Origin: Sphaerochaetaceae bacterium
GTDB taxonomy: Bacteria; Spirochaetota; Spirochaetia; Sphaerochaetales; Sphaerochaetaceae
DNA length: 32,425 nt
Assembly: GCA_016938475.1 (NCBI GenBank)
Contig: JAFGUP010000134.1
Location: 1 to 32,425, forward strand
Direction of reading: 5' to 3'
Positions 8,599-28,967 of the stretch are shown piece after piece. The position numbers were made by a program, and so were the translations under genes. The notes below the pieces were generated by a model. That model did no database searches and had not been told where the DNA came from. It worked only from the letters and a program-made list of their open reading frames with translations. Position 1 is the stretch's first letter, and each line of letters starts with the position of its first letter.

Positions 8599-11283
8599 TC
8601 AGATGGCAATAGCCTCAATAGATTCCACCGTGAAATCATAGGGTTTTTCATTTATGTCGAATGTGAATCGTTCTCCGGGAGTATGATTCAGCAGTTTAGC
8701 TCCGAAGGGAGCCATGTAACTGATGGTATTTTCATTCGGATTCGATTCCCATGGGCCAAGAATTCGATATTCCTGCATATCACCGGTAATGTTGTTCTTG
8801 AGAGTTACCTTCGTGCCGAAGGATACCTTGCTCACATCGATCTGTTCCTTCGTGATAACATTCGCACGGGATATCTCATCGGTCAGTTTCACCATCGTTG
8901 CATTCAGTATTCCCTGCTTCTCCTTGGCGGCTTTGAATTCAGAATTCTCACGAAGATCACCAAGTTCCAGTGCTGCACCGATTTCCTTGGAGTTCTCAGG
9001 TATCTCCACGTTCATGATGTGGTCAAGTTCGTTCTGCTTCTCGATGTATCGTGTCCTGGTGACCATGAGACCGCTACTCACCATCTCCTTGGAATCGAGG
9101 TCTTCACCGAGGAAGACGAAATCAGGGAACCGTTCAAGAATCACATGTTTTACTTCAAGCTTCTTGGACATCTCGAGAGATTCCATCCGCTGTATGATAA
9201 AGTTGATCCTCTGAGCCTGCCCCTCATTCGCTTCATCGAGGAACTGGTACAGACTGCGCTCATCGAACAGGATGGTTAGAAGTGTTTTCACGATCTTCTT
9301 GTTTTCCGCTGTAGCCCGTTTTGCTTCTATGGCGTTGAACGCATAGTCGAGCAGCTGGAGCTGACTGGTGATGAGAGTCTCGAAAGGAATTCTGATCTTC
9401 TTTTCCCAGAACTTCCTGTCATAGGAGCGTGAGAGATAGGTGAACAGGTCAGCGTTCTCCTTGTAGTTCCTGCAGGCCTTCTTGAACATATCACTGATGA
9501 CACGGTTCTTTCCCTGTTCTCGGAGAGTGTCCATGATGTAGTTAGTCAGGTAATAGGGGTACAGGGAAACCAGCACCACCGGCACGCGTTCAGGGTCTTC
9601 GGTCTCAACGACCTTGTCAATGAAAGCCTTCTTCAGTTCTGCATCTTCGATTGCTTCGAACGTCTGTTCAATCGAGTCAAGCATACCGTACAGGTGTTTG
9701 AATTCTGCGCCTTCAGGACGGGCAATGAACGGGTAGCGCCGGGCAAGGTAATCAACCAGCAGGTAGGAGGAGATAACCTGATCGGTCACTCCCTGATAGA
9801 TACTGCACTGGTCTCTGAAATATTTGACCATTTCTATGAAGAAATCGGACTCCACGTCTCCGTTGATGAGAAAATCCCGTATGATCTTGACCTTTGCATA
9901 GAACCGCTTTTCGTTTCTAAAGATACCAAGTGATTTCTCTTCATAACTGATAGGGGTCTCCCGTACAGTATAGACATCACTCGCGTTGGGTAGGAACCCG
10001 ATGAGAGGATCGTTCATGAGTACTTTCTTGGCCTTATTGAGCCAGCTGGTCCACTCCTTCGCACTCAGAATGGAAGGGACTATCTCACTCTTCATGGTCT
10101 TCAATGTGGCCGCATTACCGTTGCTCTGAATCAGCGTCCTCAGACCCCAGGGCACATCGGTGATGAATTTCTCCTTGAGCTTATCCTTCGGGAACAGCGA
10201 CTTCAGAACCCAGATATGCTGGGCAGGAAGAACCTGTAGAGAGCTGAAAGCCATGGCAAGAGACATCGAATGTCCTCGCTTGGAGGGGAAATCGATGATA
10301 ACATGCTCACTGGTAATCTCCTTGATTCTACCGATGGCCCATGATTTATGGAACACGAATGATCCCTTATCGAAGGCAATGTTCTTTTCGAATTCATTGA
10401 TCGCAAGATGGATGTCCCGGTAGGCCTTGTCCAGATTACTGCTCTCGATGCAGGATGCGAGACGACTGTGGTTGGCATACTTCTTTTTGTAAGTCGCCAC
10501 GAGCTGTTCTCGAGCCCAGTCATTTGTGGGAGAAAAATCGAGAATGGTCTTCATGGCATCAATGGCGTTGTCGTAATTGTCGTGTTCAAGACTCCGCTGG
10601 TACAGGGCACCTATCGGTTTAAAGGCAGGTTCTCCGTTGAATTTCTCTGCAATCCTTTCTGCAAGTGAAAGTACGTAGGGGAACTCATCAGGCATCATAT
10701 CAAAGAGTATCGTAAACACTTCAATGACCGACTGATAACTCTGGGCATTCAGATACCTCTGGAAGGCCTTCTTGTAGTACGCTATCGCCTTTTCTCTCTG
10801 GTCCTGTTCTAGAGCTTTCTCTGCAAGTGTTATGAGTAGTTCAGTTTCCTCGAAATCGACCGCTACAAGACGTTCATACAATGCATAGGCTTCTTCTCGT
10901 TTTCCCTGTTTCTCATAAATCGAGGCAAGAATACGGAGAACGTACTTGTCTTCAAAAGCGTCAAGCACCTTGAGTGACAGAAACTCTGCGATCCCGTCCT
11001 TGCCGTTCTCTATGAACATCTCGATAAGGTTCGTGATATTCCCGTAATCGAACGATTTTCTCATCACCGAGATGATTCCTGAGATATAGAGTGCCGCGAT
11101 ACTGTTTTTGTTCTTCTTGAGATGCTCATCGCAGATGCTCTTGACTTCAAGGAGATCTTCACTTCCCTGGATGCCTGCTATGGTTGTATCAATCTCCTGA
11201 AACATCGGCACAGTGTAGGTGGTAAGAGCAGTACGGGTCCATGCCTCTTCTGTTAACAGTGATCTGATAGCGTCTTCATTCAT
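8599..11283 (-). CDS. greA: Transcription elongation factor GreA with long TPR-like N-terminal extension
   Basis: The protein has 894 residues; ordinary GreA has about 158. The C-terminal ~155 residues are GreA: a coiled-coil hairpin with GDLRENSEF at about 775-783 (the acidic tip that enters the RNA polymerase secondary channel and stimulates cleavage of backtracked RNA), then the globular domain with ISYMAPFGAKLL. Residues ~105-260 are helical repeats with TPR character, for example LASIYEKQGKREEAYALYERL and KAIAYYKKAFQRY. Residues ~307-352 form a small beta-rich stretch (WAIGRIKEITSEHVIIDF) that looks KOW/SH3-like. Residues ~360-735 are helical with no assignment. AAGGA lies 8 bases before the ATG. 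Similar long GreA proteins are known in Borrelia and Treponema; the role of the extension is unknown to me. Confidence 0.92.
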   Translation of the reverse strand: MNEDAIRSLLTEEAWTRTALTTYTVPMFQEIDTTIAGIQGSEDLLEVKSICDEHLKKNKNSIAALYISGIISVMRKSFDYGNITNLIEMFIENGKDGIAEFLSLKVLDAFEDKYVLRILASIYEKQGKREEAYALYERLVAVDFEETELLITLAEKALEQDQREKAIAYYKKAFQRYLNAQSYQSVIEVFTILFDMMPDEFPYVLSLAERIAEKFNGEPAFKPIGALYQRSLEHDNYDNAIDAMKTILDFSPTNDWAREQLVATYKKKYANHSRLASCIESSNLDKAYRDIHLAINEFEKNIAFDKGSFVFHKSWAIGRIKEITSEHVIIDFPSKRGHSMSLAMAFSSLQVLPAQHIWVLKSLFPKDKLKEKFITDVPWGLRTLIQSNGNAATLKTMKSEIVPSILSAKEWTSWLNKAKKVLMNDPLIGFLPNASDVYTVRETPISYEEKSLGIFRNEKRFYAKVKIIRDFLINGDVESDFFIEMVKYFRDQCSIYQGVTDQVISSYLLVDYLARRYPFIARPEGAEFKHLYGMLDSIEQTFEAIEDAELKKAFIDKVVETEDPERVPVVLVSLYPYYLTNYIMDTLREQGKNRVISDMFKKACRNYKENADLFTYLSRSYDRKFWEKKIRIPFETLITSQLQLLDYAFNAIEAKRATAENKKIVKTLLTILFDERSLYQFLDEANEGQAQRINFIIQRMESLEMSKKLEVKHVILERFPDFVFLGEDLDSKEMVSSGLMVTRTRYIEKQNELDHIMNVEIPENSKEIGAALELGDLRENSEFKAAKEKQGILNATMVKLTDEISRANVITKEQIDVSKVSFGTKVTLKNNITGDMQEYRILGPWESNPNENTISYMAPFGAKLLNHTPGERFTFDINEKPYDFTVESIEAIAI

Positions 11284-11590: not shown

Positions 11591-11619
11591 TTAACAAATG
11601 TTTTATTTTCTGGTACAAA
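11591..11619 (+). promoter_or_regulatory. Candidate promoter placing the start point at the rpe start codon
   Basis: TTAACA (11591-11596) and TACAAA (11614-11619) are separated by 17 bases, and TGG before the -10 gives an extended -10 (TGnTACAAA). The -10 ends 6 bases before the rpe ATG, so transcription would start at or next to the A of ATG. There is no Shine-Dalgarno in the upstream 20 bases, and an in-frame TAA at 11620 excludes a longer protein. This suggests a leaderless rpe mRNA. Confidence 0.55.
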
Positions 11620-11625
11620 TAAGCT

Positions 11626-12294
11626 ATGAAAAGAGAATCGAAGTGTATAGTCGCACCGAGCATGCTGTCGGCAGACTTCAGCAGAGCAGGTGAGGGTCTT
11701 GAGGAAGTGAACGCAGCCGGGGCTGACTGGGTTCATCTGGATGTGATGGATGGCCTTTTCGTGCCGAATATATCGTTCGGACCGAAGTTCATAGCGGACC
11801 TGAAAGACAAGAGCACGCTACCTTTCGATGCTCATCTCATGGTTCAGAATCCTGAACCGTTCATAAAAGAGTTTGCTGATGCCGGGGCTGATTACATCAC
11901 CGTTCACGCGGAGACGGTGACTCATCTTCATAAGGTTATCTCCAGTATACACCAGGCGGGTGTCAATGCCGGAATTTCAATCGTCCCCTCGACACCGGTA
12001 TCCATGATATACCAGATGCTCTCTGACGTGGAACTCGTCCTTCTCATGAGTGTCAATCCCGGTTTTGGTGGCCAGAGTTTCATCGAATTCACCTTTGATA
12101 AGATTCGTGAGCTCGATGCGTATCGCACTGAGCATAAACTCGATTTTCTGATCTCCGTGGATGGGGGAGTGACTACACACAATGCCGAGAAGCTGTATCA
12201 GAGCGGAGTTGATGTGCTGGTAGTGGGAACCACATTCTTCAAGAGTACCGACAGGTCGGCACTGGTGGAAGCCCTCCACGCGATGAATCGATAG
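11626..12294 (+). CDS. rpe: Ribulose-phosphate 3-epimerase
   Basis: This 222-residue TIM-barrel enzyme interconverts ribulose 5-phosphate and xylulose 5-phosphate in the pentose phosphate pathway. Visible active-site elements are S12 in APSMLSADF, H37 and D39 in HLDVMDG, H70 in FDAHLMV, the SVNPGFGGQSF phosphate loop (142-152), D179 in SVDGGV and VVGTTFF at about 199. H37, D39, H70 and D179 are the expected metal ligands. The start is forced: an in-frame TAA lies two codons upstream and no other start codon occurs before the family core. No ribosome-binding site is present, consistent with a leaderless message. dtd begins at the base after the stop. Confidence 0.97.
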   Translation: MKRESKCIVAPSMLSADFSRAGEGLEEVNAAGADWVHLDVMDGLFVPNISFGPKFIADLKDKSTLPFDAHLMVQNPEPFIKEFADAGADYITVHAETVTHLHKVISSIHQAGVNAGISIVPSTPVSMIYQMLSDVELVLLMSVNPGFGGQSFIEFTFDKIRELDAYRTEHKLDFLISVDGGVTTHNAEKLYQSGVDVLVVGTTFFKSTDRSALVEALHAMNR

Positions 12295-15453: not shown

Positions 15454-16175
15454 ATATAGATTATCCGATACGACTACAGAGTTATCTTGCAAAAAGCGGC
15501 TATGGTTCGCGCAGAGCTTGTGAACGGATCATTCAGGAGGGGCGGGTGAGCGTCAACCTGAAACAGATCACAGAACCGGGAGTGAAGGTGAATGAGGAGG
15601 ACATCGTGCAGGTAGATGGGATGCTCGCAGAAATCAGCGAGGCTACCTACTATTTTGCCCTCCACAAGCCCAGAGGATACATCTGCAGCAACTATGACCC
15701 GAATGAAGATCGCTACGCAAGAGACCTGATCACGATCAAGGACAAACACCTTCTGTTCCACATCGGACGGCTCGACAAAGATTCCAGCGGCCTGATTCTC
15801 TATACGAATGACGGAGATGCAGCCAACAAGATTACCCATCCCTCCTACGGGATAGAGAAAGAGTATGCGGTAAAGACGAAAGAACCGATCAGAAAAGAGG
15901 ATCTCAAGAAAGCCCTGAAAGGAATCATGATCGACAATAAGCTTCCCTATGCAATCAAAAGTTTCGATATCAAGACGAAGACCTGGGTGCATGTGACTCT
16001 TACAGAGGGGAAAAACCGTGAGATCCGCAAGATCTTCGAGGTTCTGGGGTACGAGGTCGTCAAACTCATCAGACTGAGAATCGGTTCGATAGAACTCAAG
16101 GACATGAAGGTTGGTGAGTATCGTCCGCTGAAGAAGGGAGAGATCGATTCTCTGCTGAAGGAAAGTCAGAGATGA
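15450..16175 (+). CDS. rluB: RsuA/RluB-family rRNA pseudouridine synthase
   Basis: This 241-residue enzyme has an N-terminal S4 RNA-binding domain (about 8-65, LAKSGYGSRRACERIIQEGRV) and a catalytic domain with GRLDKDSSGLIL (the Asp of GRLD is the catalytic residue). The family C-terminal EGKNREIRKIFEVLGY is also present. It isomerises a uridine in ribosomal RNA. The position after scpA-scpB matches the widespread scpA-scpB-rluB cluster, which favours RluB over RsuA. The exact target position cannot be deduced. GAGGAAGAG precedes the ATG, which overlaps the scpB stop by 4 bases; the stop in turn overlaps cmk. Confidence 0.93.
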   Translation: MNIDYPIRLQSYLAKSGYGSRRACERIIQEGRVSVNLKQITEPGVKVNEEDIVQVDGMLAEISEATYYFALHKPRGYICSNYDPNEDRYARDLITIKDKHLLFHIGRLDKDSSGLILYTNDGDAANKITHPSYGIEKEYAVKTKEPIRKEDLKKALKGIMIDNKLPYAIKSFDIKTKTWVHVTLTEGKNREIRKIFEVLGYEVVKLIRLRIGSIELKDMKVGEYRPLKKGEIDSLLKESQR

Positions 16176-16852
16176 ACATAGAACCATTGAAACACCTTCA
16201 TGGTGCTGTTGTCGCTATCGATGGACCGGCCGGGGTAGGCAAGTCGACTATCGCCAGAACCATCAGCGATCATCTCGGTTATTACTTTGTGAACTCAGGG
16301 AATTTCTATCGGGCGATCACCTACACGGCATTGCATAGGAATATCGACCTTACACATGAAGATCAGATCATTACAGTTGCCCGCAGTGTCAGACTCACTC
16401 TCAAGGATGACCTTCTGGCCGTTGATGGTGAAATCGTCGAGGGATTCCTGCACACTGACGAAGTCGATGCCTGGGTTGCCGGGCACTCTGCGATCATCTC
16501 AGTGCGAGACATCGTCAATGAGAATCTCAGACGGCTTGCACGTGAGGGGCTGAATATCGTATGCGAAGGAAGAGATATCACGACTGTGGTATTTCCCCAT
16601 GCCCGGTTCAAGTTCTTCCTTGATGCATCCCCTCACGTCCGAGCCGAGAGACGGTATCATCAGCAGGAGACCCGTTACAGTATCGATGAAATCGAACAGA
16701 AGATCGCTGAACGCGATGTGATCGATCGAAATAAAGTCTATGGAGCCCTAAAGATCTCAGAGGAAGCGATCTATATTGATTCCTCATACTTGACCATAGA
16801 TGAAGTTTATGTAAAAGTGTTACAAGCTATGCTCGACCAATTGGGAGAGTGA
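16172..16852 (+). CDS. cmk: Cytidylate kinase
   Basis: This 226-residue P-loop kinase phosphorylates CMP and dCMP with ATP. Walker A is IDGPAGVGKST (16-26). NSGNFYRAIT is the CMP-binding segment, and the GRDITTVVFPHARFKFFLDA region carries the conserved GRD-x-T-x-V-P-A pattern. The start overlaps the rluB stop (ATGA). rpsA begins 25 bases after its stop, the very common cmk-rpsA pairing. I recall that some treponemes carry these two as one fused protein; here they are separate, with an intact stop codon and a new ribosome-binding site. Confidence 0.96.
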   Translation: MNIEPLKHLHGAVVAIDGPAGVGKSTIARTISDHLGYYFVNSGNFYRAITYTALHRNIDLTHEDQIITVARSVRLTLKDDLLAVDGEIVEGFLHTDEVDAWVAGHSAIISVRDIVNENLRRLAREGLNIVCEGRDITTVVFPHARFKFFLDASPHVRAERRYHQQETRYSIDEIEQKIAERDVIDRNKVYGALKISEEAIYIDSSYLTIDEVYVKVLQAMLDQLGE

Positions 16853-16877
16853 GCAAATATGGATCAGGAGAATATAA

Positions 16878-18605
16878 GTGGAAGAAGTAAAGGAAGTGTT
16901 GGAAACACAAGAAAAACTGCAGCAGAAGGCTGAACTACAGACAAAGTTGCAGGAGCATTACCTTAAATCTCTTGATGAAATTGAAGACGGTCAGCTTGTT
17001 ACCGGTACTGTTGTTCAGGTCAATAACGAGTATGTATTTGTGGATGTGGGATATAAGTCCGAAGGAAGGATTGCCTTGGATGAGTTTGCCACCAGCCCTG
17101 CCGTCGGCGACGAAGTCAAGGTTCTGATAGTCAACAAGGAAGGAAAAGGCGGACAGATCGTCATTTCCAAGAAGCGCGCTGACATCAAAGAGAGAACGGA
17201 TGTTCTCAAAGTAGCTGCAGAAAACCGGGATCCGGTTATGGGCAAGTTCGTTAAAGTCATCAAAGGCGGATACGAAGTTGACCTTGGAAACGAGTTCCTC
17301 GGATTCTGTCCTCTCAGTAAAGCAGACGTAGTCAGAGTCGAGGATCCCGAGACTCTCATCGGTATTGCAGACTATTTCATCATAGACAAGTTTCATACAG
17401 GCATGAAACTTAAATCTGTCGTTTCGAGAAGAGAATATCTCGAGAAGCAGATCAAGATCAACAAAGAACATTTTTTCTCGACTGTCAAGATCGGAGATGT
17501 TGTTGAAGGTACCGTCAAGAGCTTTACCAGCTTCGGTGCATTCATCGATCTCGGGGGATTTGACGGTCTTCTTCACATAAACGATATGAGCTGGGGTCAT
17601 GTGACCAAGCCCAAGGACTTTGTCAACAAAGGTGAAGTGGTGCATCTTCGTCTGATCAATATCGACCCGGAATCACAGAAGATCAATCTTTCACTCAAGC
17701 ACATGACCGAGGATCCATGGAATTCTTTCGAACAGCGCTACCATGTTGATGATGTGGTTCAGGCACCTGTGACAAAGATCACCAATTTCGGTGTGTTCAT
17801 TGAGATAGAACCCGGAATTGAAGGGCTCGCTCACATCTCTGAGCTGTCCTGGACGAAACGGGTCAACAACCCGAAGGAAATTGTTTCCATCGGAGATATG
17901 GTCAGTGCAAAGATCCTGGGCTATGACCTCGATAAGAAGAGAGTCTCTCTCGGTCTCAAGCAGCTCGAAGAGAATCCCTGGGACACAATCGATGTACGCT
18001 ACCCGGTAGGTATGACCTTCACCAAGCCTGTTGTCAAGATCACGGCAAACGGAGCTTTCGTTAACCTTGAAGACGGTATAGACGGATTTCTCCATGTTGA
18101 TGACATCTCATGGACCAAGAGAGTCAAGAATATGAACGACTTCTGTAAGGAAGGCGACGTGATTGATGTCGTGGTAACCCGTGTGGATCCGCAGACACGC
18201 CATATCAGACTTGGTGTCAAACAGCTTTCAGGTAATCCATGGAATACGCTCAAGCAGGAATACCCCAAGGGTTCGATCATCAGTGGTGAGGTCACCAATG
18301 TGACTGACTTTGGTGTGTTTGTCCGTGTCCTCGGTGACATTGAAGGGCTCATCTCCAAATACAACCTGATCGGACCGGATGAAGAGTACAATGACTCAAT
18401 TCTCTCGAAGTTCAAAGTTGGAGACCCGATCTCTGCAGCGGTTGTCGAGGTGAATACCAATACACAGAAACTTTCTCTTTCGATCAAGGAGAAGATCCGG
18501 ATCTCTCAGCAGTCTGAGATCTCAAAGTACATTCATGGCAGTGATGACTCCGATACGTTCACGTTCGGCGATCTTATCAGTTCCAAAGACAAAGACTCAG
18601 AATAG
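16878..18605 (+). CDS. rpsA: 30S ribosomal protein S1
   Basis: This 575-residue S1 has six S1 (OB-fold) repeats at roughly 37-100, 116-186, 205-276, 290-363, 377-450 and 464-540. Repeats 3-6 are the best conserved (EGTVKSFTSFGAFIDLG, ITNFGVFIEI, ITANGAFVNL, VTDFGVFVRV). S1 captures mRNA leaders on the small subunit. The start is GTG at 16878 with AGGAG close upstream (16866-16870). The ATG at 16859 is out of frame and leads only to a short frame. The length and six repeats match proteobacterial-type full S1, not the four-repeat Firmicute type. A conserved NPW/DPW spacer separates repeats 3-6. Confidence 0.97.
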   Translation: MEEVKEVLETQEKLQQKAELQTKLQEHYLKSLDEIEDGQLVTGTVVQVNNEYVFVDVGYKSEGRIALDEFATSPAVGDEVKVLIVNKEGKGGQIVISKKRADIKERTDVLKVAAENRDPVMGKFVKVIKGGYEVDLGNEFLGFCPLSKADVVRVEDPETLIGIADYFIIDKFHTGMKLKSVVSRREYLEKQIKINKEHFFSTVKIGDVVEGTVKSFTSFGAFIDLGGFDGLLHINDMSWGHVTKPKDFVNKGEVVHLRLINIDPESQKINLSLKHMTEDPWNSFEQRYHVDDVVQAPVTKITNFGVFIEIEPGIEGLAHISELSWTKRVNNPKEIVSIGDMVSAKILGYDLDKKRVSLGLKQLEENPWDTIDVRYPVGMTFTKPVVKITANGAFVNLEDGIDGFLHVDDISWTKRVKNMNDFCKEGDVIDVVVTRVDPQTRHIRLGVKQLSGNPWNTLKQEYPKGSIISGEVTNVTDFGVFVRVLGDIEGLISKYNLIGPDEEYNDSILSKFKVGDPISAAVVEVNTNTQKLSLSIKEKIRISQQSEISKYIHGSDDSDTFTFGDLISSKDKDSE

Positions 18606-20434: not shown

Positions 20435-21256
20435 ATGATAGATTATACCTACAAAGAAACCGAAACCCTGTCGGAAGCCCTCAGCCAGCTGTACACCATC
20501 GTAACAATCCTGAGAAGTCCAGGTGGATGTCCCTGGGATCGAAAGCAGACAGCAAAGAGCGTGTCTTCCGCTATCGTGGATGAAACCTATGAATATATAG
20601 ATGGAATCCTCGACGATAATGATGAGAACATGAAAGAGGAACTCGGTGATGTCCTTTTGAATGTATTCCTGTCCTACCGTATCCACGAGGAAGAACAAAC
20701 CTTTTCACCTGTCGACTCAATAAACGCAGTTTCTCAGAAACTGATTCGGCGTCACCCTCATGTGTTTTCCGATGCCGAAGCAGATGATGCAGATTCGGTC
20801 ATAACCTTATGGGATCAGGTCAAACAGACGGTCGAAGGGAAAACCTATGACTCTGATGATCTTTTTTCCAGGATTCCACAGCAGTTGCCCCAACTTGCGC
20901 ATGCACTTGAAGTCCAGAAGATCATGAAGAAACTAGGCTTCGACTGGCCCGAAGTGAACGGTGTGATTGATAAGATCGAAGAAGAACTAGAAGAAGTGAG
21001 AGATGCGATACACAACAGGCAACCCATGGACACTGAACATGTTGAGGAAGAAATCGGGGATCTGCTGTTCACTGTCGTCAATCTTGCCAGATATCTGAAG
21101 ATCGATCCGCAGATCGCCTTGCGACGTACAAACAGAAAAATCGAGAAACGGTTCAATACGCTTCATACACGCTCTCGTCAGAACAGTATCGAGATGCACT
21201 ATGACAACCTTGATCAGCTTAATGATCTGTGGGATGCAATTAAGGAAGAGGAATAA
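20435..21256 (+). CDS. mazG: Nucleoside triphosphate pyrophosphohydrolase MazG
   Basis: This 273-residue protein has the two tandem MazG domains of the full-length family. The N-terminal domain has GGCPWDRKQT, DETYEYIDGI, EELGDVLLNVFL and RRHPHVF. The C-terminal domain has KLGFDWPEV, EEELEEVRDAI and EEEIGDLLFTVVNLARYL, carrying the acidic metal-binding set. It hydrolyses NTPs/dNTPs to monophosphates and pyrophosphate. In the N-terminal domain the first acidic motif reads DETYE where EEAYE is common. It has no ribosome-binding site and probably a leaderless transcript. oppA1 starts 62 bases downstream without an obvious strong promoter, so readthrough is possible. Confidence 0.95.
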   Translation: MIDYTYKETETLSEALSQLYTIVTILRSPGGCPWDRKQTAKSVSSAIVDETYEYIDGILDDNDENMKEELGDVLLNVFLSYRIHEEEQTFSPVDSINAVSQKLIRRHPHVFSDAEADDADSVITLWDQVKQTVEGKTYDSDDLFSRIPQQLPQLAHALEVQKIMKKLGFDWPEVNGVIDKIEEELEEVRDAIHNRQPMDTEHVEEEIGDLLFTVVNLARYLKIDPQIALRRTNRKIEKRFNTLHTRSRQNSIEMHYDNLDQLNDLWDAIKEEE

Positions 21257-21318
21257 TAATTCTCCTCTTTCCTTCACATTGCCTTCGGTGCGTGGTACAT
21301 TCAATACAAGGGGGCCCT

Positions 21319-22833
21319 ATGAAACGTATATGTATAGTACTCTCGATTCTTATTGCACTCTCAGGAACCTTGCTGTTTGCCGCAGGTGAAACAGAACAGA
21401 CGACGGGTAGTTCCGTCATCATTCGAGTAGCTGATAACATGCCGGGACTCATCACTCCCGGACAATGGAATGGGCAGGCTTTCAGTCTCAACTCTTCAGT
21501 CTATGATTATCCGGTAGTACTCGACCCCGATACAGGTGAACTGAAAGGAGAGGTTCTGAGCTCATGGGAGAGTGAAGACGGTCTGAGATGGATACTCACC
21601 ATTAGACAGGATATTGTGTTTCATGACGGGTCCACTCTCGATGCCGATGATCTCATCTTCACCCTTGAAAGAACTCAGGACTCAACTGTTTCACATGTGA
21701 AACAAAAAGACTTCGAGATCATTGAATCGGTCAACAAGATCGATGCATACACGGTTGAGGTGGTTCTCAAGGAAGTGCGTCCTGGCTTCATCTATCAGCT
21801 GAGTGATTATAACATGGCTGTTCTCTCTCGTGACTACGACTATTCGGCACTGGGAGAAACTTCCCCGATGGGTAGTGGTCCCTTTACAGTACAGGAACTG
21901 GTGAACAAGGAGTATGCACATCTGGTCGCCTTCGATGAGTACTGGGAGAAAGGCTTTCCCCTTTCTGACGAGGTACATATCTACTTCGTCTCTGACAGGG
22001 ATACTGCTCTCTCGATGCTCATAAACGGTCAGGTGGATATAGTTCCTTTTATAACACCAATCATGAAACAGCGTGTGGATTCTCATGAAGATATCTATGT
22101 GACAGTACCATATACTGAGCAGAGATTCCTATCCATGAGAGTTGATGCCCCCCCCTTCAATGATAATACTGTGCGTCTGGCACTGAAGCATTCGCTCTCC
22201 CCTACCCTGCTTGCCAGAGGCCTCAATCTTGAACTGGGTTCCCAATTCTACTACAGTGAAGGTCCCGTGATGGAAACACAATCGCAGTTTGTGCAGACAG
22301 GACCGAGAAAACGGGACCCGCAGAAAGCACGCGATCTTTTAAAGCAGGCTGGATATCCGGAAGGGCTGACGGTGACCCTCACCTATGCAGGGGACCATGC
22401 TTTTAATCAGGCCATCGCGCAGAGTATCCAGGAACAGGCGAAGGAAGGTGGGTTCACTATTTTACTGAAAGGGTATCCAAGAGATATCTACTTCAGTCAG
22501 TACTGGATGCAGGTTCCTTTGAGCATCACCACCTGGGGCGGCAGAGTTGATCCTGCAGTTCTCCTCTCTCTGGCGTTCGACTCCCGGGGGGTCTGGAATG
22601 AATCGCATGTGAAGGATCCTGTCCTTGATGAGATAATCAGTTCGATACTCACAGAAGTAGAGGCAGGCAAGCTGGACATGCTGTATCGAGAACTACAGGA
22701 GTATTTCTACGATGTCGGTCCTCTGATAAACATCCAGGTTCCCTACCTTGTAGCTCTCACCTCATCGATCAGCGGCTATACGCAACCGTTAACTATGCTG
22801 CCAGTATATAAATACATAGAAAAACTAAATTAG
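21319..22833 (+). CDS. oppA1: Peptide/opine/nickel-type ABC transporter substrate-binding protein (first copy)
   Basis: This 504-residue family-5 solute-binding protein has a signal peptide with the MKRICIVLSILIALSGTLLF core, ending at about AAGETEQ. There is no lipobox Cys, so it is probably cleaved by signal peptidase I. Mature-protein motifs include LRWILTIRQDIVFHDGSTLDADDL and the SPMGSGPFTV segment, both typical of OppA/DppA. I chose ATG 21319 over the in-frame GTG at 21292 because it starts a clean signal peptide and has AAGGGGG just upstream. It is a clear paralogue of the protein at 23683-25191 along its whole length. The regulator gene follows after 16 bases. The ligand cannot be deduced; a peptide is the default guess, but osmolytes or opines are possible. 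The gene symbol is positional. Confidence 0.9.
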   Translation: MKRICIVLSILIALSGTLLFAAGETEQTTGSSVIIRVADNMPGLITPGQWNGQAFSLNSSVYDYPVVLDPDTGELKGEVLSSWESEDGLRWILTIRQDIVFHDGSTLDADDLIFTLERTQDSTVSHVKQKDFEIIESVNKIDAYTVEVVLKEVRPGFIYQLSDYNMAVLSRDYDYSALGETSPMGSGPFTVQELVNKEYAHLVAFDEYWEKGFPLSDEVHIYFVSDRDTALSMLINGQVDIVPFITPIMKQRVDSHEDIYVTVPYTEQRFLSMRVDAPPFNDNTVRLALKHSLSPTLLARGLNLELGSQFYYSEGPVMETQSQFVQTGPRKRDPQKARDLLKQAGYPEGLTVTLTYAGDHAFNQAIAQSIQEQAKEGGFTILLKGYPRDIYFSQYWMQVPLSITTWGGRVDPAVLLSLAFDSRGVWNESHVKDPVLDEIISSILTEVEAGKLDMLYRELQEYFYDVGPLINIQVPYLVALTSSISGYTQPLTMLPVYKYIEKLN

Positions 22834-22849
22834 CAGGACAGAGATCATT

Positions 22850-23509
22850 ATGACTCATGACGAAACACAGATGCAATACGTCTCTTCGAAACGGAATGCA
22901 CATCCAGCATACCTCAAAATTGCATACGACATTGCAAGAAGGATCTCCTGTGAAGAACTTCCGGTCGGGACGCGACTGTTCGGCCGATCTCTCATGAGCA
23001 GTGAATACGGGGTTTCGCCGGAGACCATACGCCGAGCTTTATCACTTCTTTCAGAGAAAAGTATCGTTGAGATCCACAAAAACAGCGGCGTATCTGTCCT
23101 TTCCAAAGAGAAGGCAGACACCTATGTACGGGAGGCATCAAAGGATACAGACAATCGAGCTCTTTTGTCACATCTGTATGATCTTCTCGAACAGCAGAAG
23201 AAACTTTCTCAGGAAATCTCTTCCACCGTACATGCCCTCACCCGTTCCATAAGCCGCAAATCTGCCGATCTGTTTCCGTACCACACATACGAGGTGATAA
23301 TCCAGGAAGGTTCTCTGTTGTGCGGGAAGACCCTCTCCGATGTTGAATTCTGGGGGAAAACAGGAGCGACAGTCATTGCGATACGAAGGAGTGGTCATAT
23401 TCACCTCTCTCCCGGTCCTGATGTCCCCCTTGAGGCTGATGATGTCCTGGTCCTTGTCGGACATGAAGATCACAGTCAGGCACTTGCTTCTCTGACGAAC
23501 GGAGAATAG
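22850..23509 (+). CDS. GntR-type winged-helix regulator with RCK_C (TrkA-C) domain, BusR-like
   Basis: This 219-residue protein has an N-terminal GntR-type winged helix (about 17-84; YLKIAYDIARRI, LMSSEYGVSPETIRRALSLL, IVEIHKNSGVSVLSKEKA). A helical, probably coiled-coil segment follows (about 102-138), then an RCK_C/TrkA-C domain (about 145-215; GSLLCGKTLSDVEFWGKTGATVIAIRR and LEADDVLVLVG). This order and length match BusR, the c-di-AMP-binding repressor of glycine-betaine uptake in streptococci and lactococci. RCK_C domains of several K+ systems also bind c-di-AMP. AGGA precedes the ATG. It lies between two paralogous binding-protein genes, directly upstream of oppA2-oppB-oppC-oppDF, as busR lies upstream of its target. 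The ligand and target are inferred, not shown. Confidence 0.88.
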   Translation: MTHDETQMQYVSSKRNAHPAYLKIAYDIARRISCEELPVGTRLFGRSLMSSEYGVSPETIRRALSLLSEKSIVEIHKNSGVSVLSKEKADTYVREASKDTDNRALLSHLYDLLEQQKKLSQEISSTVHALTRSISRKSADLFPYHTYEVIIQEGSLLCGKTLSDVEFWGKTGATVIAIRRSGHIHLSPGPDVPLEADDVLVLVGHEDHSQALASLTNGE

Positions 23510-23582
23510 TACCTTATTTTATCTCCCACCATTAGATATGACACACATGAACACTACAGTAAGCGACAGGATGATTCTGCCC

Positions 23583-23637
23583 TGTCACCAAGACTTGACA
23601 AACTGACATACTCAGTACAATAATAAAGTTGTCAGTT
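23583..23637 (+). promoter_or_regulatory. oppA2 promoter with bipartite TGACA/TGTCA operator candidate
   Basis: A perfect TTGACA (23595-23600) is followed by AATAAT at an 18-base spacing (23619-23624) or TACAAT at 15 (23616-23621). Around it lie four TGTCA/TGACA half-sites: 23583-23587, 23596-23600, 23604-23608 and 23630-23634. The outer arms AACTGACA (23601-23608) and TGTCAGTT (23630-23637) are perfect 8-base inverted copies, 21 bases apart, flanking the -10. A further GACAGG/CCTGTC pair lies at 23565-23586. The likely reader is the regulator encoded just upstream. The 173-base gap (23510-23682) contains no gene. Confidence 0.55.
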
Positions 23638-23682
23638 CTATGTTCCATGAACTGCCTTATCAATTTCACTGGAGGTAAAACA

Positions 23683-25191
23683 ATGAAAAAGATAGCTGTC
23701 TTTCTCGTAGTTGTGCTGCTATTCTCATCTCTGCTGTTTGCAGGGGGAGCTGCAGAACAGGAAAGCACAAAGAAATCGCTACGGGTTGCTACTCAGGTAC
23801 CGGGTCTCATTACAATGGGAATCTGGGATGGTCAGGCTTTTGCTCTGAACTCGAGTATCTATGAATATCTTATCGAAATCGATGCAAATACTGGAGAACT
23901 TGTCCCGGTGCTGGCAACAGATTGGGAAACAGAGGATGGGAAGACCTGGGTCTTCAACCTGAGAGAAGGGGTTACGTTCCATGACGGATCCGCTTTCACT
24001 GCCGAAGATGTCAAATACACCATCGAACGAACTCAGGACCCCGAAATCGGACATCTGAAGAAGAATGATTTCGCCGCGGTCGAACAAGTGGAGATCATTG
24101 ACGATTATACGATTGCTCTCCATCTTGAAAAAGCATTACCGACATTCATCTACCTGTTCACCGACTACAACATGGGAATTCTTTCAAGTGAATACGACTA
24201 TGCCTCGAAGGGGGAGATGTATCCGATGGGAACAGGACCTTTCATTCTGAAAGAGATCATACCCAAAGAATCAGCCTATCTGGTAAAAAATGAGTCCTAC
24301 TGGGATCCAGAGTTGCCGAAGGTCGACGAACTCCTTCTTTATTTCGTCGGGGATATCGATGCATCGGTATCCATGCTTGAAAGCGGAGAAGTAGATGTCG
24401 TCCCGCAGATCTCCCCTATCATTAAAAAGCGTCTTGACCAGCAGGAAGGGATCACCGTTGTCTCTCCCTACCAGGAAAACAGATTCATCGCCCTTGTCCA
24501 GGACAGAGAACCGTTCAACGACAACCGCGTACGTCTTGCATTCAAGTATGCAATGGATCCTCAGGTCATCGCACGAAGCGTAGCTCAGATGGAGTTAAAT
24601 GAGGGAGTGTTCTACAACGAATCATTCATCCTCAATGAACAGGCTGAATACCTTGACATACCATTCAGAGGAAGGGACATCGAGAAAGCAAAAGAACTGC
24701 TTAGTGAAGCCGGATATCCTGATGGCCTCTCCGTAGACCTGTACTATGCATCCGACCACCCATACGGGAAGGAACTTTCTCAGACTATCAAAGAGCTCTC
24801 TGCAGATGCAGGATTCGAACTTAACCTTAAAGGATTCACTCGCGACGTCTATCTCTCGCAGCACTGGCTGAATGTACCGATGAGTATTACAGGATGGGGT
24901 GCCAGAGTCGATGTTTCGATGCTTCTCAGCTATGCATACCATAGTGAAGGCCCCTGGAATGAATCCCATATGAACAATCCGAAGGTTGATGAACTCATAG
25001 ACCTGATCAAGGCGGAAGTCGACTACGATACACGATTGGGGTATTATCACGAACTCCAGAGGATCTTCTTTGAAGAAGGGACGGTCATCAATGTACAGGT
25101 TCCTTATCTCGTTGCGTTAAGTGACAAGGTTGTTGACTATCGTCAGCCTTTGACCATGTTGCCGCAGTACAAATATACGGATATCAAATGA
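23683..25191 (+). CDS. oppA2: Peptide/opine/nickel-type ABC transporter substrate-binding protein (second copy)
   Basis: This 502-residue family-5 solute-binding protein has a signal peptide (MKKIAVFLVVVLLFSSLLFA) followed by GGAAEQ, a pattern common for exported binding proteins in Treponema/Sphaerochaeta-type spirochaetes. Shared with oppA1 are PGLIT-x-G-x-W, the GQAF-x-LNSS block, FHDGS, the ERTQD segment, P-MG-GPF, EPFNDN/APPFNDN and a C-terminal QVPYLVAL. The two are tandem paralogues that have diverged considerably. ATG 23683 has GGAGG 7 bases upstream (23671-23675); the longer GTG-started frame from 23629 overlaps the operator and is rejected. Its stop overlaps oppB (ATGA), so this copy is the one built into the transporter operon. 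Confidence 0.92.
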   Translation: MKKIAVFLVVVLLFSSLLFAGGAAEQESTKKSLRVATQVPGLITMGIWDGQAFALNSSIYEYLIEIDANTGELVPVLATDWETEDGKTWVFNLREGVTFHDGSAFTAEDVKYTIERTQDPEIGHLKKNDFAAVEQVEIIDDYTIALHLEKALPTFIYLFTDYNMGILSSEYDYASKGEMYPMGTGPFILKEIIPKESAYLVKNESYWDPELPKVDELLLYFVGDIDASVSMLESGEVDVVPQISPIIKKRLDQQEGITVVSPYQENRFIALVQDREPFNDNRVRLAFKYAMDPQVIARSVAQMELNEGVFYNESFILNEQAEYLDIPFRGRDIEKAKELLSEAGYPDGLSVDLYYASDHPYGKELSQTIKELSADAGFELNLKGFTRDVYLSQHWLNVPMSITGWGARVDVSMLLSYAYHSEGPWNESHMNNPKVDELIDLIKAEVDYDTRLGYYHELQRIFFEEGTVINVQVPYLVALSDKVVDYRQPLTMLPQYKYTDIK

Positions 25192-26156
25192 ATAGTTATC
25201 TGAGTACGGTTTTCAGCAAGGTAGGGTCGCTTCTAGCGACCCTACTGGTCATCTCGCTGATCATCTTCTCCCTTGTCGAACTGATGCCTGGAGATGTAGC
25301 ACAGATGATTCTCGGGCAATCAGCAACAGAAGAGTCTCTGAGAGAATTACGACAGGCTCGCGGCCTCAACGATCCCTTCTTCACCCGCTACGGGAGATGG
25401 ATCACAGGTGTTCTTCGCGGTGATCTAGGGGATTCTATCTATATGCAGGGTGTTCCCATCAGTTCGATACTGTGGAGGAAGGTGGGTCATTCACTCTTCC
25501 TTGCTCTCACAGCATTCATTATCTTCGTCCCGGTATCAATCGTCCTGGGTGTCATAGCCGGTGTGAAGGAAAAGAAGGCCGCAGATTCGATCATCAGTTT
25601 TACGGGACTGGCGACGATGGCCCTTCCTGAATTTGTATCGGGGGTCATTCTCATCTCCATTTTTGCGGTACGACTGAAATGGCTACCGATTGTAAGTGTT
25701 ATCCCGATCGGTCAGACTCTTTTTCAGAATCTCGACATCCTTATACTCCCTGCTCTCAGTATCACCTTTGTCATGTTCGGATACGTTTCGCGCATGCAGA
25801 GATCAAGTATGATCATTGTCATGAATTCAGATTATATCAAGGCGGCACGCCTGAAAGGATTACCTGAACGATATATCATCTTCCGGCATGCTCTCAGGAA
25901 TGCTCTCCTGCCAACAATCACGATCATCGGGATGAATATGGGCTGGCTGTTCGGCGGCCTGATCGTCGTAGAGACCCTGTTCGGATTCCCGGGCATGGGC
26001 TCTCTTCTGATGACCGCGATCAAAACGCGTGATGTCCCGCTTATAGAGGCATGCGTGCTTCTTATCACTGTCATCTTCGCTCTATCAACGATGACAACAG
26101 ATCTCCTGTATGGATATCTGAACCCGCGAATCAGGTTCAAAGGGGGTCAGCGATGA
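25188..26156 (+). CDS. oppB: ABC transporter permease, OppB/DppB type
   Basis: This 322-residue inner-membrane permease has a first membrane helix at about 12-32, then the characteristic periplasmic segment RGLNDPFFTRYGRWITGVLRGDLGDS, and five further helices. The EAA cytoplasmic coupling loop is YIKAARLKGLPERYIIFRHALRNALLP. It forms the translocation channel with OppC. The ATG overlaps the oppA2 stop (ATGA). A perfect 11-bp hairpin lies at codons 12-20 of this gene and could reduce its expression relative to oppA2. The stop overlaps oppC. Confidence 0.95.
   Translation: MNSYLSTVFSKVGSLLATLLVISLIIFSLVELMPGDVAQMILGQSATEESLRELRQARGLNDPFFTRYGRWITGVLRGDLGDSIYMQGVPISSILWRKVGHSLFLALTAFIIFVPVSIVLGVIAGVKEKKAADSIISFTGLATMALPEFVSGVILISIFAVRLKWLPIVSVIPIGQTLFQNLDILILPALSITFVMFGYVSRMQRSSMIIVMNSDYIKAARLKGLPERYIIFRHALRNALLPTITIIGMNMGWLFGGLIVVETLFGFPGMGSLLMTAIKTRDVPLIEACVLLITVIFALSTMTTDLLYGYLNPRIRFKGGQR
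25221..25245 (+). other. Perfect 11-bp hairpin inside the 5' end of oppB
   Basis: GTAGGGTCGCT (25221-25231), loop TCT, AGCGACCCTAC (25235-25245) is an uninterrupted 11-bp stem with a 3-base loop, 7 of 11 pairs G-C. It begins 33 bases after the oppB ATG and 29 bases after the oppA2 stop. No U tract follows, so it is not an intrinsic terminator. Likely roles are protection of the oppA2 3' end from exonucleases after cleavage, or damping of oppB translation. Confidence 0.85.
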
Positions 26157-26983
26157 AATATGTTCTCTATCAGCTGAAACGACACCCCCTGGCGATCATA
26201 GCCATACTGGTCATCCTCGGGTGGATTTTTCTTGCTTTTGCAGGTCCTTCGCTGCTTTCCTATACATACACGGAGATGGACAGCACGTTCCAGATGGCAC
26301 CTCCGGGAGTCAATAACCATCTGCTGGGAACGGATGCTCTCGGGAGAGATATCCTGTCACGAATCATCGTGGGGAGCAGGTCAATTCTAACCGTTGCCCT
26401 GTTCACCAGTATCCTTTCGACAATACTCGGCATTATTCTTGGTTTTTCAGCAGGATATTTCGGCAAAGCCTTTGATACCCTTTTCCTCAGATCGATGGAT
26501 ATCCTCATGTCGATCCCTCCCCTTGTCCTTTCGATGGTTGTCCTGGGTATTCTGGGAGATTCTACAATCGCCTCATTGACACTCATTGTCTCTATTGCAT
26601 TCATTCCAGCGACAGCCCGCGTTTCGCGTGGCGTTCTACTGAGTGAAAAATCACAGGAGTATGTGCAGGCTGCACGTATACGAGGAGAATCGCACGTCTA
26701 CATCATGTTCGCAGAAATCCTTCCGAATACGGTCGGTCCGATCATTGTTGAAGCCACTGCCCGTTTCGCCTACTCCATCATGATGGTCGCATCACTCGGT
26801 TTTCTCGGTGTTGGCCTGCAACCTCCGACACCGGACTGGGGTATGATGGTCATAGAAAACAGACCGATCATAGCAGACGCTCCCTGGACAGTTCTCTTTC
26901 CTGCGCTTGCAATCGCTTCGCTGGTGATTGCAATTTCGATATTCAGCGATTTCATTTCAAAGGTACTGATCCATGAACGATAA
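26153..26983 (+). CDS. oppC: ABC transporter permease, OppC/DppC type
   Basis: This 276-residue permease has an N-terminal membrane helix (about 14-36) and the OppC family segment GVNNHLLGTDALGRDILSRIIVGSR. Five further helices follow, with the EAA loop YVQAARIRGESHVYIMFAEILPN. It ends with SLGFLGVGLQPPTPDWGMMV, typical of the DppC/OppC subfamily. It pairs with OppB. I chose ATG 26153, overlapping the oppB stop; a longer frame from 26051 lies wholly inside oppB. Its 3' end overlaps the ATPase gene by 11 bases. Confidence 0.95.
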   Translation: MKYVLYQLKRHPLAIIAILVILGWIFLAFAGPSLLSYTYTEMDSTFQMAPPGVNNHLLGTDALGRDILSRIIVGSRSILTVALFTSILSTILGIILGFSAGYFGKAFDTLFLRSMDILMSIPPLVLSMVVLGILGDSTIASLTLIVSIAFIPATARVSRGVLLSEKSQEYVQAARIRGESHVYIMFAEILPNTVGPIIVEATARFAYSIMMVASLGFLGVGLQPPTPDWGMMVIENRPIIADAPWTVLFPALAIASLVIAISIFSDFISKVLIHER

Positions 26984-28967
26984 TATATTAGATCTCAAGC
27001 ATGTGAGTGTGCACTATGAGACATTTGAAGGATTATTTACCGCAGTGCGTGATATATCCTTCTCACTCGGGTACAATGAATCCATCGGGATTATCGGTGA
27101 AAGCGGATGCGGAAAAAGCACTCTCAGTTATGCTATCCTCCGGTACCTTGCCAGTAATGCGAAGATAGAAGGTTCTGTCCACTTCAAGGACCAGAATCTT
27201 TTCGAACTCAGCGACAGGGAAATGGAAGGAATACGTGGTAACAGGATATCGATGGTCTACCAGAACCCCTACTCTTCTTTGAACCCCTCAATCACCATCG
27301 GGAAACAACTTGATGAAGTAACGATATTCCACCGTGGTCTCTCGAAAGCAGATGCCCGTACTGCCTCGCTCGAAGCTCTTGAACTGATGAATATCGGTGA
27401 CGGGAAGAATCTGGTCAGACGGTATCCCCATCAGATAAGTGGAGGAATCCAACAGAGAATCATTATAGCGATGGCGATTCTTGCACGTCCTGATATCATG
27501 GTACTTGATGAGCCGACTACCGCTTTGGATGTGACCACCGAAGCGGTTATTCTGGATTCTATCAACGACCTGAAACAGAAACTGAACATGTCCTTCATAT
27601 ACATTTCTCACGACATGGGAGTCATCAACAAGGTAGCAGAACAGATTATCGTCATGTACAACGGAGAGATGGTGGAACGCGGACCGAAGGAGAAAATCTT
27701 TGCCCATCCGTTCCATCCGTATACCAGGGCACTGATCAACTGTATGCCCCGAGGTGGAGTGGTCAAGGAGAAAACCTATCTGAACACGATCAAGGGATAC
27801 GTGAAACGCAGAGGTGATCTGGCGACAGGGTGTCCCTTTGCAGACCGCTGTGAAAAAAAGACAGCAACCTGTGAAGATGATTATGGGATTCGTGAGGTTG
27901 ATGATGGCCACTATGCTGCCTGTTCGAGAGCCTACGCTGAAGATGTTCAAAGTCCGCCAACAAAGGCTTTCCATCGCAATAGTGTCACAGCTGCAACCCA
28001 ACAGGCTGATGTGCCTGCGCTTATCAATATCGAGGATCTGAAAAAAGTCTACGGCCTGAGGCGCAAGGTCCATGCACTCAATGGAGTAACCTTCTCTATG
28101 CCGGCAGGCACTGTCCTGGGAGTTGTTGGAGAAAGCGGCTGCGGTAAATCTACGACCGGTCATATCATCACAGGTCTTTACTCTCCAACCAAAGGGAAAG
28201 TGGAGTTCAAACAGAGAGATATCTCCCTTGACTGGAGAAAACGCGACGCCGCCACGCTTCGTGAGATCCAGCTCATCTTCCAGAATCCGGGAAAATCCCT
28301 CAATCCATCTCACACGGTTGAGCAGATCATTGCCCGTCCGATGAATAAACTGATAGGACGTAAAAACAAGAAAGAGAGGCGTGAAGAGATCATCCAGCTC
28401 CTCAAGACCGTCGATCTGGGCGGAGACTACATCACGAAGAAACCGAAGGAGATGAGCGGAGGAGAGCAACAGCGGGTAGCAATTGCCCGTGCACTGGCGA
28501 TCAATCCTGAACTGATAGTCTGTGATGAACCGACAAGTGCCCTTGATGTATCGGTTCAGGCCTCTGTTCTCAATCTTCTGAATGAGATCCAGGAAAAGAC
28601 AGGTACCAGCTACATCTTCATCTCTCACGATCTGAATGTGATCAACTACATCAGTGATACTATTCTTGTGATGTATGCCGGGTTTGTAGTCGAGTTCGGA
28701 TTACGTGATGAGGTCATGGCACCTCCCTTCCATCCTTACACGGAAGCGCTCTTTTCGGCTGTTCCTGACGTTGACCCGACAAAAAAAAAGAAGGTCATCG
28801 AACTGACAGGCGCCCTTCCAGACCCAAGTCGCAAGGTGAAGGGATGTCCCTTCGCAAGTCGCTGCCACATAAAAATCGGAGAAGTGTGTGACAAGGTGTA
28901 TCCTCCCAAACGGGAGATCTCACCGACACACTATTATTACTGCCACGCTGACAGAAGTTCCTCGTAG
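26973..28967 (+). CDS. oppDF: Fused OppD-OppF ABC transporter ATPase
   Basis: This 664-residue protein carries two complete ATPase halves. The first (about 5-320) has Walker A GESGCGKST (42-50), signature SGGIQQR (156-162), Walker B with DEPTTALD (179-186) and an OppD-type Cys-containing C-terminal motif (C287, C293, C300, C317). A ~30-residue linker follows. The second (about 350-664) has Walker A GESGCGKST (386-394), signature SGGEQQR (495-501), DEPTSALD (518-525) and a second Cys motif (C625, C631, C639, C657). It powers OppBC-type import. The fusion fixes 1:1 stoichiometry and is seen in several lineages. The 3' end overlaps the convergent radical SAM gene by 31 bases. Confidence 0.95.
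   Translation: MNDNILDLKHVSVHYETFEGLFTAVRDISFSLGYNESIGIIGESGCGKSTLSYAILRYLASNAKIEGSVHFKDQNLFELSDREMEGIRGNRISMVYQNPYSSLNPSITIGKQLDEVTIFHRGLSKADARTASLEALELMNIGDGKNLVRRYPHQISGGIQQRIIIAMAILARPDIMVLDEPTTALDVTTEAVILDSINDLKQKLNMSFIYISHDMGVINKVAEQIIVMYNGEMVERGPKEKIFAHPFHPYTRALINCMPRGGVVKEKTYLNTIKGYVKRRGDLATGCPFADRCEKKTATCEDDYGIREVDDGHYAACSRAYAEDVQSPPTKAFHRNSVTAATQQADVPALINIEDLKKVYGLRRKVHALNGVTFSMPAGTVLGVVGESGCGKSTTGHIITGLYSPTKGKVEFKQRDISLDWRKRDAATLREIQLIFQNPGKSLNPSHTVEQIIARPMNKLIGRKNKKERREEIIQLLKTVDLGGDYITKKPKEMSGGEQQRVAIARALAINPELIVCDEPTSALDVSVQASVLNLLNEIQEKTGTSYIFISHDLNVINYISDTILVMYAGFVVEFGLRDEVMAPPFHPYTEALFSAVPDVDPTKKKKVIELTGALPDPSRKVKGCPFASRCHIKIGEVCDKVYPPKREISPTHYYYCHADRSSS

Follow-up and report, generated by a model that had tools for sequence, protein, structure and literature searches.

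BusR, already known from streptococci and lactococci, belongs to a regulator family that links c-di-AMP to an osmolyte importer at the transcriptional level. In this family, a single polypeptide of about 210-220 residues carries a GntR winged helix-turn-helix, a coiled coil and an RCK_C domain. In the literature, the BusR operator reads GAC-N22-GTC; at busA, one of the two sites overlaps the -35 and -10 elements (PMC8517857). GntR-RCK_C proteins have also been noted in clostridia (PMC5919688). The RCK_C fold is shared with the c-di-AMP-binding domains of KtrA/CpaA (4xtt), in which the control of K+ transport is post-translational and no DNA-binding domain is present. In addition, no direct mechanism has been given for the opp mutations that arose as suppressors when Listeria, Group B Streptococcus and Borrelia turicatae lacked c-di-AMP (PMC5919688, PMC8316131). 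As the preliminary description of the present DNA had stated for spirochaetes, we found no report in the literature searched of a BusR-type regulator in these bacteria; nor did we find one with an Opp target, or with any experimentally shown target besides a betaine importer. Here, we analyzed a stretch of 32,425 nucleotides (the window) from a Sphaerochaetaceae assembly of 395 contigs that is 96% complete, and consider it likely that oppA2-oppB-oppC-oppDF is under the c-di-AMP-dependent control of a BusR-family repressor whose gene follows mazG and oppA1. Compared with BusR of S. agalactiae and L. lactis (7b5t, 7b5u, 7b5y and 7oz3; PMC8517857), the window system has the same domain order, full-length sequence similarity, a similar fold and a bipartite GAC/GTC inverted-repeat operator over the promoter of an ABC importer, and most of the DNA-contact and pocket residues are common to both. 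It differs in its Opp-type importer in place of BusA/OpuA, in an operator spacing of N23 rather than N22, in residues 157, 160 and 182, and in its spirochaete host.

The busR-like gene (22850-23509, forward strand) starts with ATG and encodes 219 residues; its assignment rests on Pfam domains, full-length BusR homology and the predicted fold. Pfam placed a GntR winged-helix DNA-binding domain at residues 21-83 (22910-23098; E 1.9e-9, 37.4 bits against a cut-off of 27) and a TrkA_C/RCK_C domain, which holds the candidate c-di-AMP pocket and is also present in the model, at residues 147-215 (23288-23494; E 1.5e-16, 60.4 bits against a cut-off of 27). In the AlphaFold2 model, which was built from 15 orthologues and has a mean pLDDT of 80.9, the winged helix is followed by a single long helix of residues 86-141 (23105-23272) and then by RCK_C. 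From the secondary structure of the model and the BusR alignment, this helix is expected to be the tetrameric coiled-coil ruler. When the protein was searched against the PDB using phmmer, it matched BusR structures over its full length (7wjg from S. mutans, E 1.6e-28; 7b5t from S. agalactiae, E 4.4e-28), with BusR at the top of the matches, ahead of other GntR or RCK proteins. Likewise, the best 13 structural matches to the model in Foldseek were all BusR chains. The global TM-scores between the model and BusR were low (0.33-0.50), as the domains are arranged differently in the monomer model, and therefore domain fits alone were used; the model RCK_C superposed on the c-di-AMP-bound RCK_C of BusR (7b5u) with 1.2 Å over 72 columns. 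Among the DNA-contact residues, R38, R53 and G72 are kept and K54 is replaced by Arg, and the changes of K36 to Phe and G70 to Asn fall at positions that are both variable across the BusR family.

To what extent the RCK_C domain could respond to c-di-AMP was judged from the pocket residues, given here in BusR numbering. In the alignment, W159, A164, T165, V166 and P179-G180-P181 are kept; T165 and P179-G180-P181 are invariant in 97 family members, and W159 is nearly so. The window protein has Leu for I153 and Phe for V158, and at the rim Glu for N157 and Gly for H160. Position 158 is Phe in 94 of the 97 family members and in nearly all of those outside streptococci. Residue 182 of BusR, Phe or Tyr, forms an autoinhibitory patch with W159 and Y13. 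This residue is Asp in the window protein and mostly non-aromatic across the Sphaerochaetaceae clade, and the loss of the aromatic side chain may shift the c-di-AMP requirement. The preliminary description had proposed comparing the pocket with that of BusR and looking for a diadenylate cyclase. The pocket was retained in its core and in its fit to 7b5u, and not at residues 157, 160 and 182, and the cyclase is present in the genome as a CdaA-like protein that is 270 aa long and has the motifs DGA and RHR. DAC also occurs in 58 of 61 relatives. As a candidate c-di-AMP phosphodiesterase, the genome further encodes a DHH-DHHA1 protein of 331 aa, of DhhP/NrnA type.

Considering the kept pocket core, c-di-AMP is probably the effector of the window regulator. 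In the literature searched, we found no documented c-di-AMP binding by BusR-family members outside streptococci and lactococci. A different reading leaves the regulator, operator and target as proposed and makes the RCK_C pocket deaf to c-di-AMP, with another ligand, ionic strength or a loss of effector control in its stead. The altered rim and the lost aromatic residue at 182 in most members of the clade are in line with this reading, as is the long branch of the window protein (1.68-1.95 changes per column), and DNA binding by L. lactis BusR responds to ionic strength too (PMC10243994). However, T165 and P179-G180-P181 of the core are invariant and W159 nearly so in the 97 family members, and a CdaA-type cyclase is encoded in the genome. 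Moreover, a proven c-di-AMP binder, KtrA (PMC7288161), has an acidic residue (D167) and a small one (A170) where the rim of the window protein has the similar Glu and Gly, and therefore the rim of the window protein does not exclude c-di-AMP binding. We thus regard a pocket deaf to c-di-AMP as unlikely.

The genes around the regulator all lie on the forward strand. Upstream are mazG (20435-21256; Pfam and synteny), the conserved upstream neighbour of busR in Sphaerochaetaceae, and oppA1 (21292-22833; SBP_bac_5 and synteny), which ends just before busR. The first gene of the putative target operon, oppA2 (23683-25191; SBP_bac_5, E 4e-77), also encodes a family-5 solute-binding protein, and the two proteins are 47% identical. 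While the oppA2 ORF spans 23629-25191, the ATG at 23683 is the better start, with GGAGG ahead of it. The Pfam calls that follow are the permeases oppB (25188-26156) and oppC (26051-26983) and, as the last gene of the operon, the fused double ATPase oppDF (26973-28967). The true start of oppC is probably near 26153, as OppC of relatives has 277 aa. SBP_bac_5, OppB, OppC and OppD/F domains together make up an Opp-type (family-5) ABC importer set. The Opp/Dpp/Gsi/Nik importers have the same SBP_bac_5, two permeases and OppD and OppF domains, and the window locus departs from them in having a BusR-like gene flanked by a pair of paralogous binding proteins and in the fusion of OppDF. The preliminary description had claimed a 219-residue GntR, coiled-coil and RCK_C protein that is flanked by paralogous family-5 binding proteins and precedes oppA2-oppB-oppC-oppDF, and each of these points was borne out by the domain, fold and homology searches. 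Its guess of a spirochaete host is correct as well. Among the genomes compared, oppA1 was present at the locus only in the window's genus (3 genomes), and there was no operator in front of it. Elsewhere in the window, cytidylate kinase and ribosomal protein S1 (16172-18605) are two ORFs with a change of reading frame at their junction; in the same-genus relatives L038 and L047 they are fused into one protein of about 811 aa. The reverse strand (8599-11283) encodes an 894-aa protein with a C-terminal GreA/GreB-type domain and an N-terminal extension of more than 700 aa.

The oppA2 promoter (23595-23624, forward strand) consists of the -35 element TTGACA (23595-23600), an 18-nt spacer and the -10 element AATAAT (23619-23624); it matches the consensus at 11 of 12 positions and is conserved in relatives. 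Intergenic conservation, a matrix scan and pattern counts point to a BusR-type operator, AACTGACA-N21-TGTCAGTT (GAC-N23-GTC), at 23601-23637, with its left arm directly after the -35 element and its right arm just downstream of the -10 element. In eight genomes, the conserved block between busR and oppA2 contains TTGACA, AACTGMCA, 21 bases with a -10-like element, and TGTYRGTT, with a few mismatches in the arms. We scanned the window using a half-site matrix trained only on operators at Firmicutes loci where betaine-importer (ProVWX) genes stand beside a BusR-like gene. The oppA2 operator scored 32.2 bits and was the best site in the window, compared with 11.3 bits for the next best in the 32 kb and 20.1 bits for the best among 300 Markov-simulated windows. 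As a held-out test, the same matrix was applied to 9 opp-linked named loci, and in 8 of them it located a site of at least 20 bits between -400 and +1250 relative to the regulator. In leave-one-out scans with this matrix, 47 of the 51 betaine-linked loci had a site of at least 16 bits near the regulator, and no such site occurred in the approximately 11.7 kb of flank scanned per locus at these 51 loci. The exact operator pattern was found in 8 of 15 regulator-bearing genomes and in 4 of 86 others (p 1.2e-5). In the window's genome, it occurred once in the genome-wide pattern search, which gave no second strong operator; at two or fewer mismatches, the counts equalled those of the reversed-pattern control, so weak sites are uninformative. 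The preliminary description had inferred that the regulator acts on the region upstream of oppA2 and had proposed 23565-23640 for gel shifts, a region that includes the operator. The predicted operator over the promoter and its co-occurrence with the regulator give this inference good support, and on sequence grounds the operator and the oppA2 operon are well supported as the target.

The spacing of the window operator is N23, whereas that of the four tested BusR operators is N22, and because it is 23 bp instead of exactly 22, we filed the window regulator as a BusR-family homologue, apart from BusR itself. At the 47 betaine-linked sites, N23 was found 38 times, N22 6 times and N24 3 times, which suggests that, within the wider BusR family, the 22 bp described for BusR are the value of a subtype. 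A longer coiled coil was rejected as the cause of N23, which is also found in relatives whose coil has the same length as that of BusR. Just upstream of the operator, at 23563-23587, there is a second imperfect inverted repeat, GCGACAGG..CCTGTCAC (GAC-N16-GTC), the spacing of which is wrong for the regulator and which is absent from the relatives' promoters compared.

A full-length regulator orthologue was present in 15 of 101 genomes (that of the window and 100 relatives, the window's included). Among 296 genomes drawn from the spirochaete phylum, only 4 had the regulator, which is therefore sporadic in spirochaetes. The gene order mazG-[oppA1]-busR-oppA2BCDF is kept across several genera, and the operator recurs at oppA2 in other regulator-bearing Sphaerochaetaceae. 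Within this family, oppA2 at E ≤ 1e-90 was found only in regulator-bearing genomes and in the fragmentary assembly G032. We dropped G032 as a regulator-less control, as its contig is fragmentary and has a degenerate site in front of oppA2 as well as another one behind this gene. In four regulator-less genomes (G061, G063, G064 and G082), oppA2 orthologues of about 60-66% identity have no operator upstream, although these genomes belong to other families and divergence could contribute to its absence. These observations bear on whether the operator is owned by another regulator, with the BusR-like gene as a bystander. Since a single conserved block holds busR, opp and housekeeping genes together, the adjacency of busR and opp could be passive, and some Sphaerochaeta keep the regulator without opp. 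However, the same operator stands beside the same regulator family at unrelated transporter genes in Firmicutes and at three transporter types in spirochaetes, and it is missing at oppA2 in the regulator-less genomes, which makes a bystander role highly improbable.

In a Sphaerochaeta group (L091, L094, L095, G004, G024, G054 and G058, including S. halotolerans), the regulator is located beside mazG and no opp genes are present at the locus. We examined whether these genomes keep an operator elsewhere near the regulator, and this was rejected: no operator was found at their busR loci, nor at the betaine loci examined in two of them. In G003 C156, two further oppA2 paralogues have variant GCC..GGC operators. 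Extra operators were also found at L037:7901-7937, L090:9373-9408 and 11602-11637, and L196:7031-7067 and 8747-8783. Such operators before oppB or before tandem or remote paralogues of oppA2 point to an Opp regulon of a few sites in some of the relatives.

Relatives of the regulator were found in 521 stretches of GTDB genomes. Among the nearest 80, 51 loci contain ProV- and ProW-like betaine-importer genes, mostly directly beside the regulator. The closest family outside spirochaetes comprises the Clostridia regulators beside ProVWX (e.g. Anaerotignum and Oscillibacter), which have about 40-50% identity and the same operator, mostly with N23, but differ in having a betaine-type importer as the target and, in nearly all cases, Tyr at residue 182. 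The Sphaerochaetaceae regulators form one clade with a support of 100/100, or 96 in a larger quick tree, and the association with opp versus betaine importers corresponds to one change on the tree. As the family elsewhere stands beside betaine importers (51 of 80 loci), the window regulator would be a rewired BusR. Two further Sphaerochaetaceae genomes have other arrangements: in G046, the regulator gene closes a ProVWX-like operon and the operator has the spacing N22, and in G038 the regulator gene precedes those of an OpuAC-permease fusion and of an ABC-CBS protein and has the operator upstream of it. In the Treponema-like spirochaetes L128, L129 and L154, a BusR-like gene is immediately followed by the genes of a polar amino-acid importer (SBP_bac_3, permease and ATPase), with one operator or two in tandem of the same type (L128:8702-8738, L129:8152-8188 and L154:1580-1651). 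Betaine, Opp and SBP_bac_3 loci thus all carry operators, and a single pairing of protein and operator has therefore been used with three or more types of importer.

As to what the importer carries, the binding proteins of solved structure that come closest in sequence profile are 5u4o, E. coli YliB (GsiB), a heme/glutathione-binding protein, AgaA, and dipeptide and nickel binders, with no clear winner. The fold comparison gave the same mixture, with glutathione, peptide, opine and nickel binders about equally near. We attempted to assign the cargo from the sequence or from the predicted OppA2 model (pLDDT 73.6), and it was not decidable; none of the binding proteins or permeases of the locus reached an NCBIfam equivalog cut-off. 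As judged from these comparisons, 'oligopeptide' is a family label rather than a result, and the cargo is somewhere within the family-5 range. These even scores would also suit a regulator that exerts nutrient (peptide or metal) control over an ordinary Opp, Nik or Gsi importer and has no osmotic meaning, as would the two OpuAC-type binding proteins of betaine-type importers that the genome keeps besides opp, with no strong operator in the stretches around their genes. Against such nutrient control, the effector domain is an RCK_C, the family elsewhere serves betaine importers, and the opp mutations in c-di-AMP-null Listeria, Group B Streptococcus and Borrelia turicatae tie peptide uptake to c-di-AMP (PMC5919688, PMC8316131). 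We consider it not very likely.

For the preferred reading, a c-di-AMP-responsive repressor of the oppA2 operon, the mechanism can be outlined by analogy with BusR. At high turgor and K+, c-di-AMP would be high and the regulator would be present as the c-di-AMP-bound tetramer. The tetramer would clamp both half-sites of 23601-23637 and cover the promoter spacer, the -10 element and the start region, by which transcription would be blocked. When c-di-AMP falls at low turgor or K+, oppA2BCDF would be derepressed. In this scheme, the regulator family, the predicted operator, its overlap with the promoter, the co-inheritance with the operon and the presence of a c-di-AMP synthase are backed by the sequence. 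Repression rather than activation is suggested by the operator position and the BusR precedent, and we hypothesize that its purpose is related to osmotic conditions or turgor.

Taken together, a regulator family known for the transcriptional coupling of c-di-AMP to an osmolyte importer appears here to be wired to an Opp-type importer via an identifiable operator, and the BusR switch seems to have changed its transporter type during evolution. We lean towards a view in which BusR-type regulators are a portable c-di-AMP-operator module, with one protein and a nearly identical operator, that has moved among betaine importers in Firmicutes and some spirochaetes, Opp in Sphaerochaetaceae and SBP_bac_3 importers in Treponema-like spirochaetes, such that c-di-AMP would directly set Opp or amino-acid uptake in these spirochaetes as a turgor valve. 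As such, the locus may connect the signalling of cell turgor directly with Opp uptake in Sphaerochaetaceae, and may bear on the question of why c-di-AMP-null Listeria, Group B Streptococcus and Borrelia acquire opp mutations.
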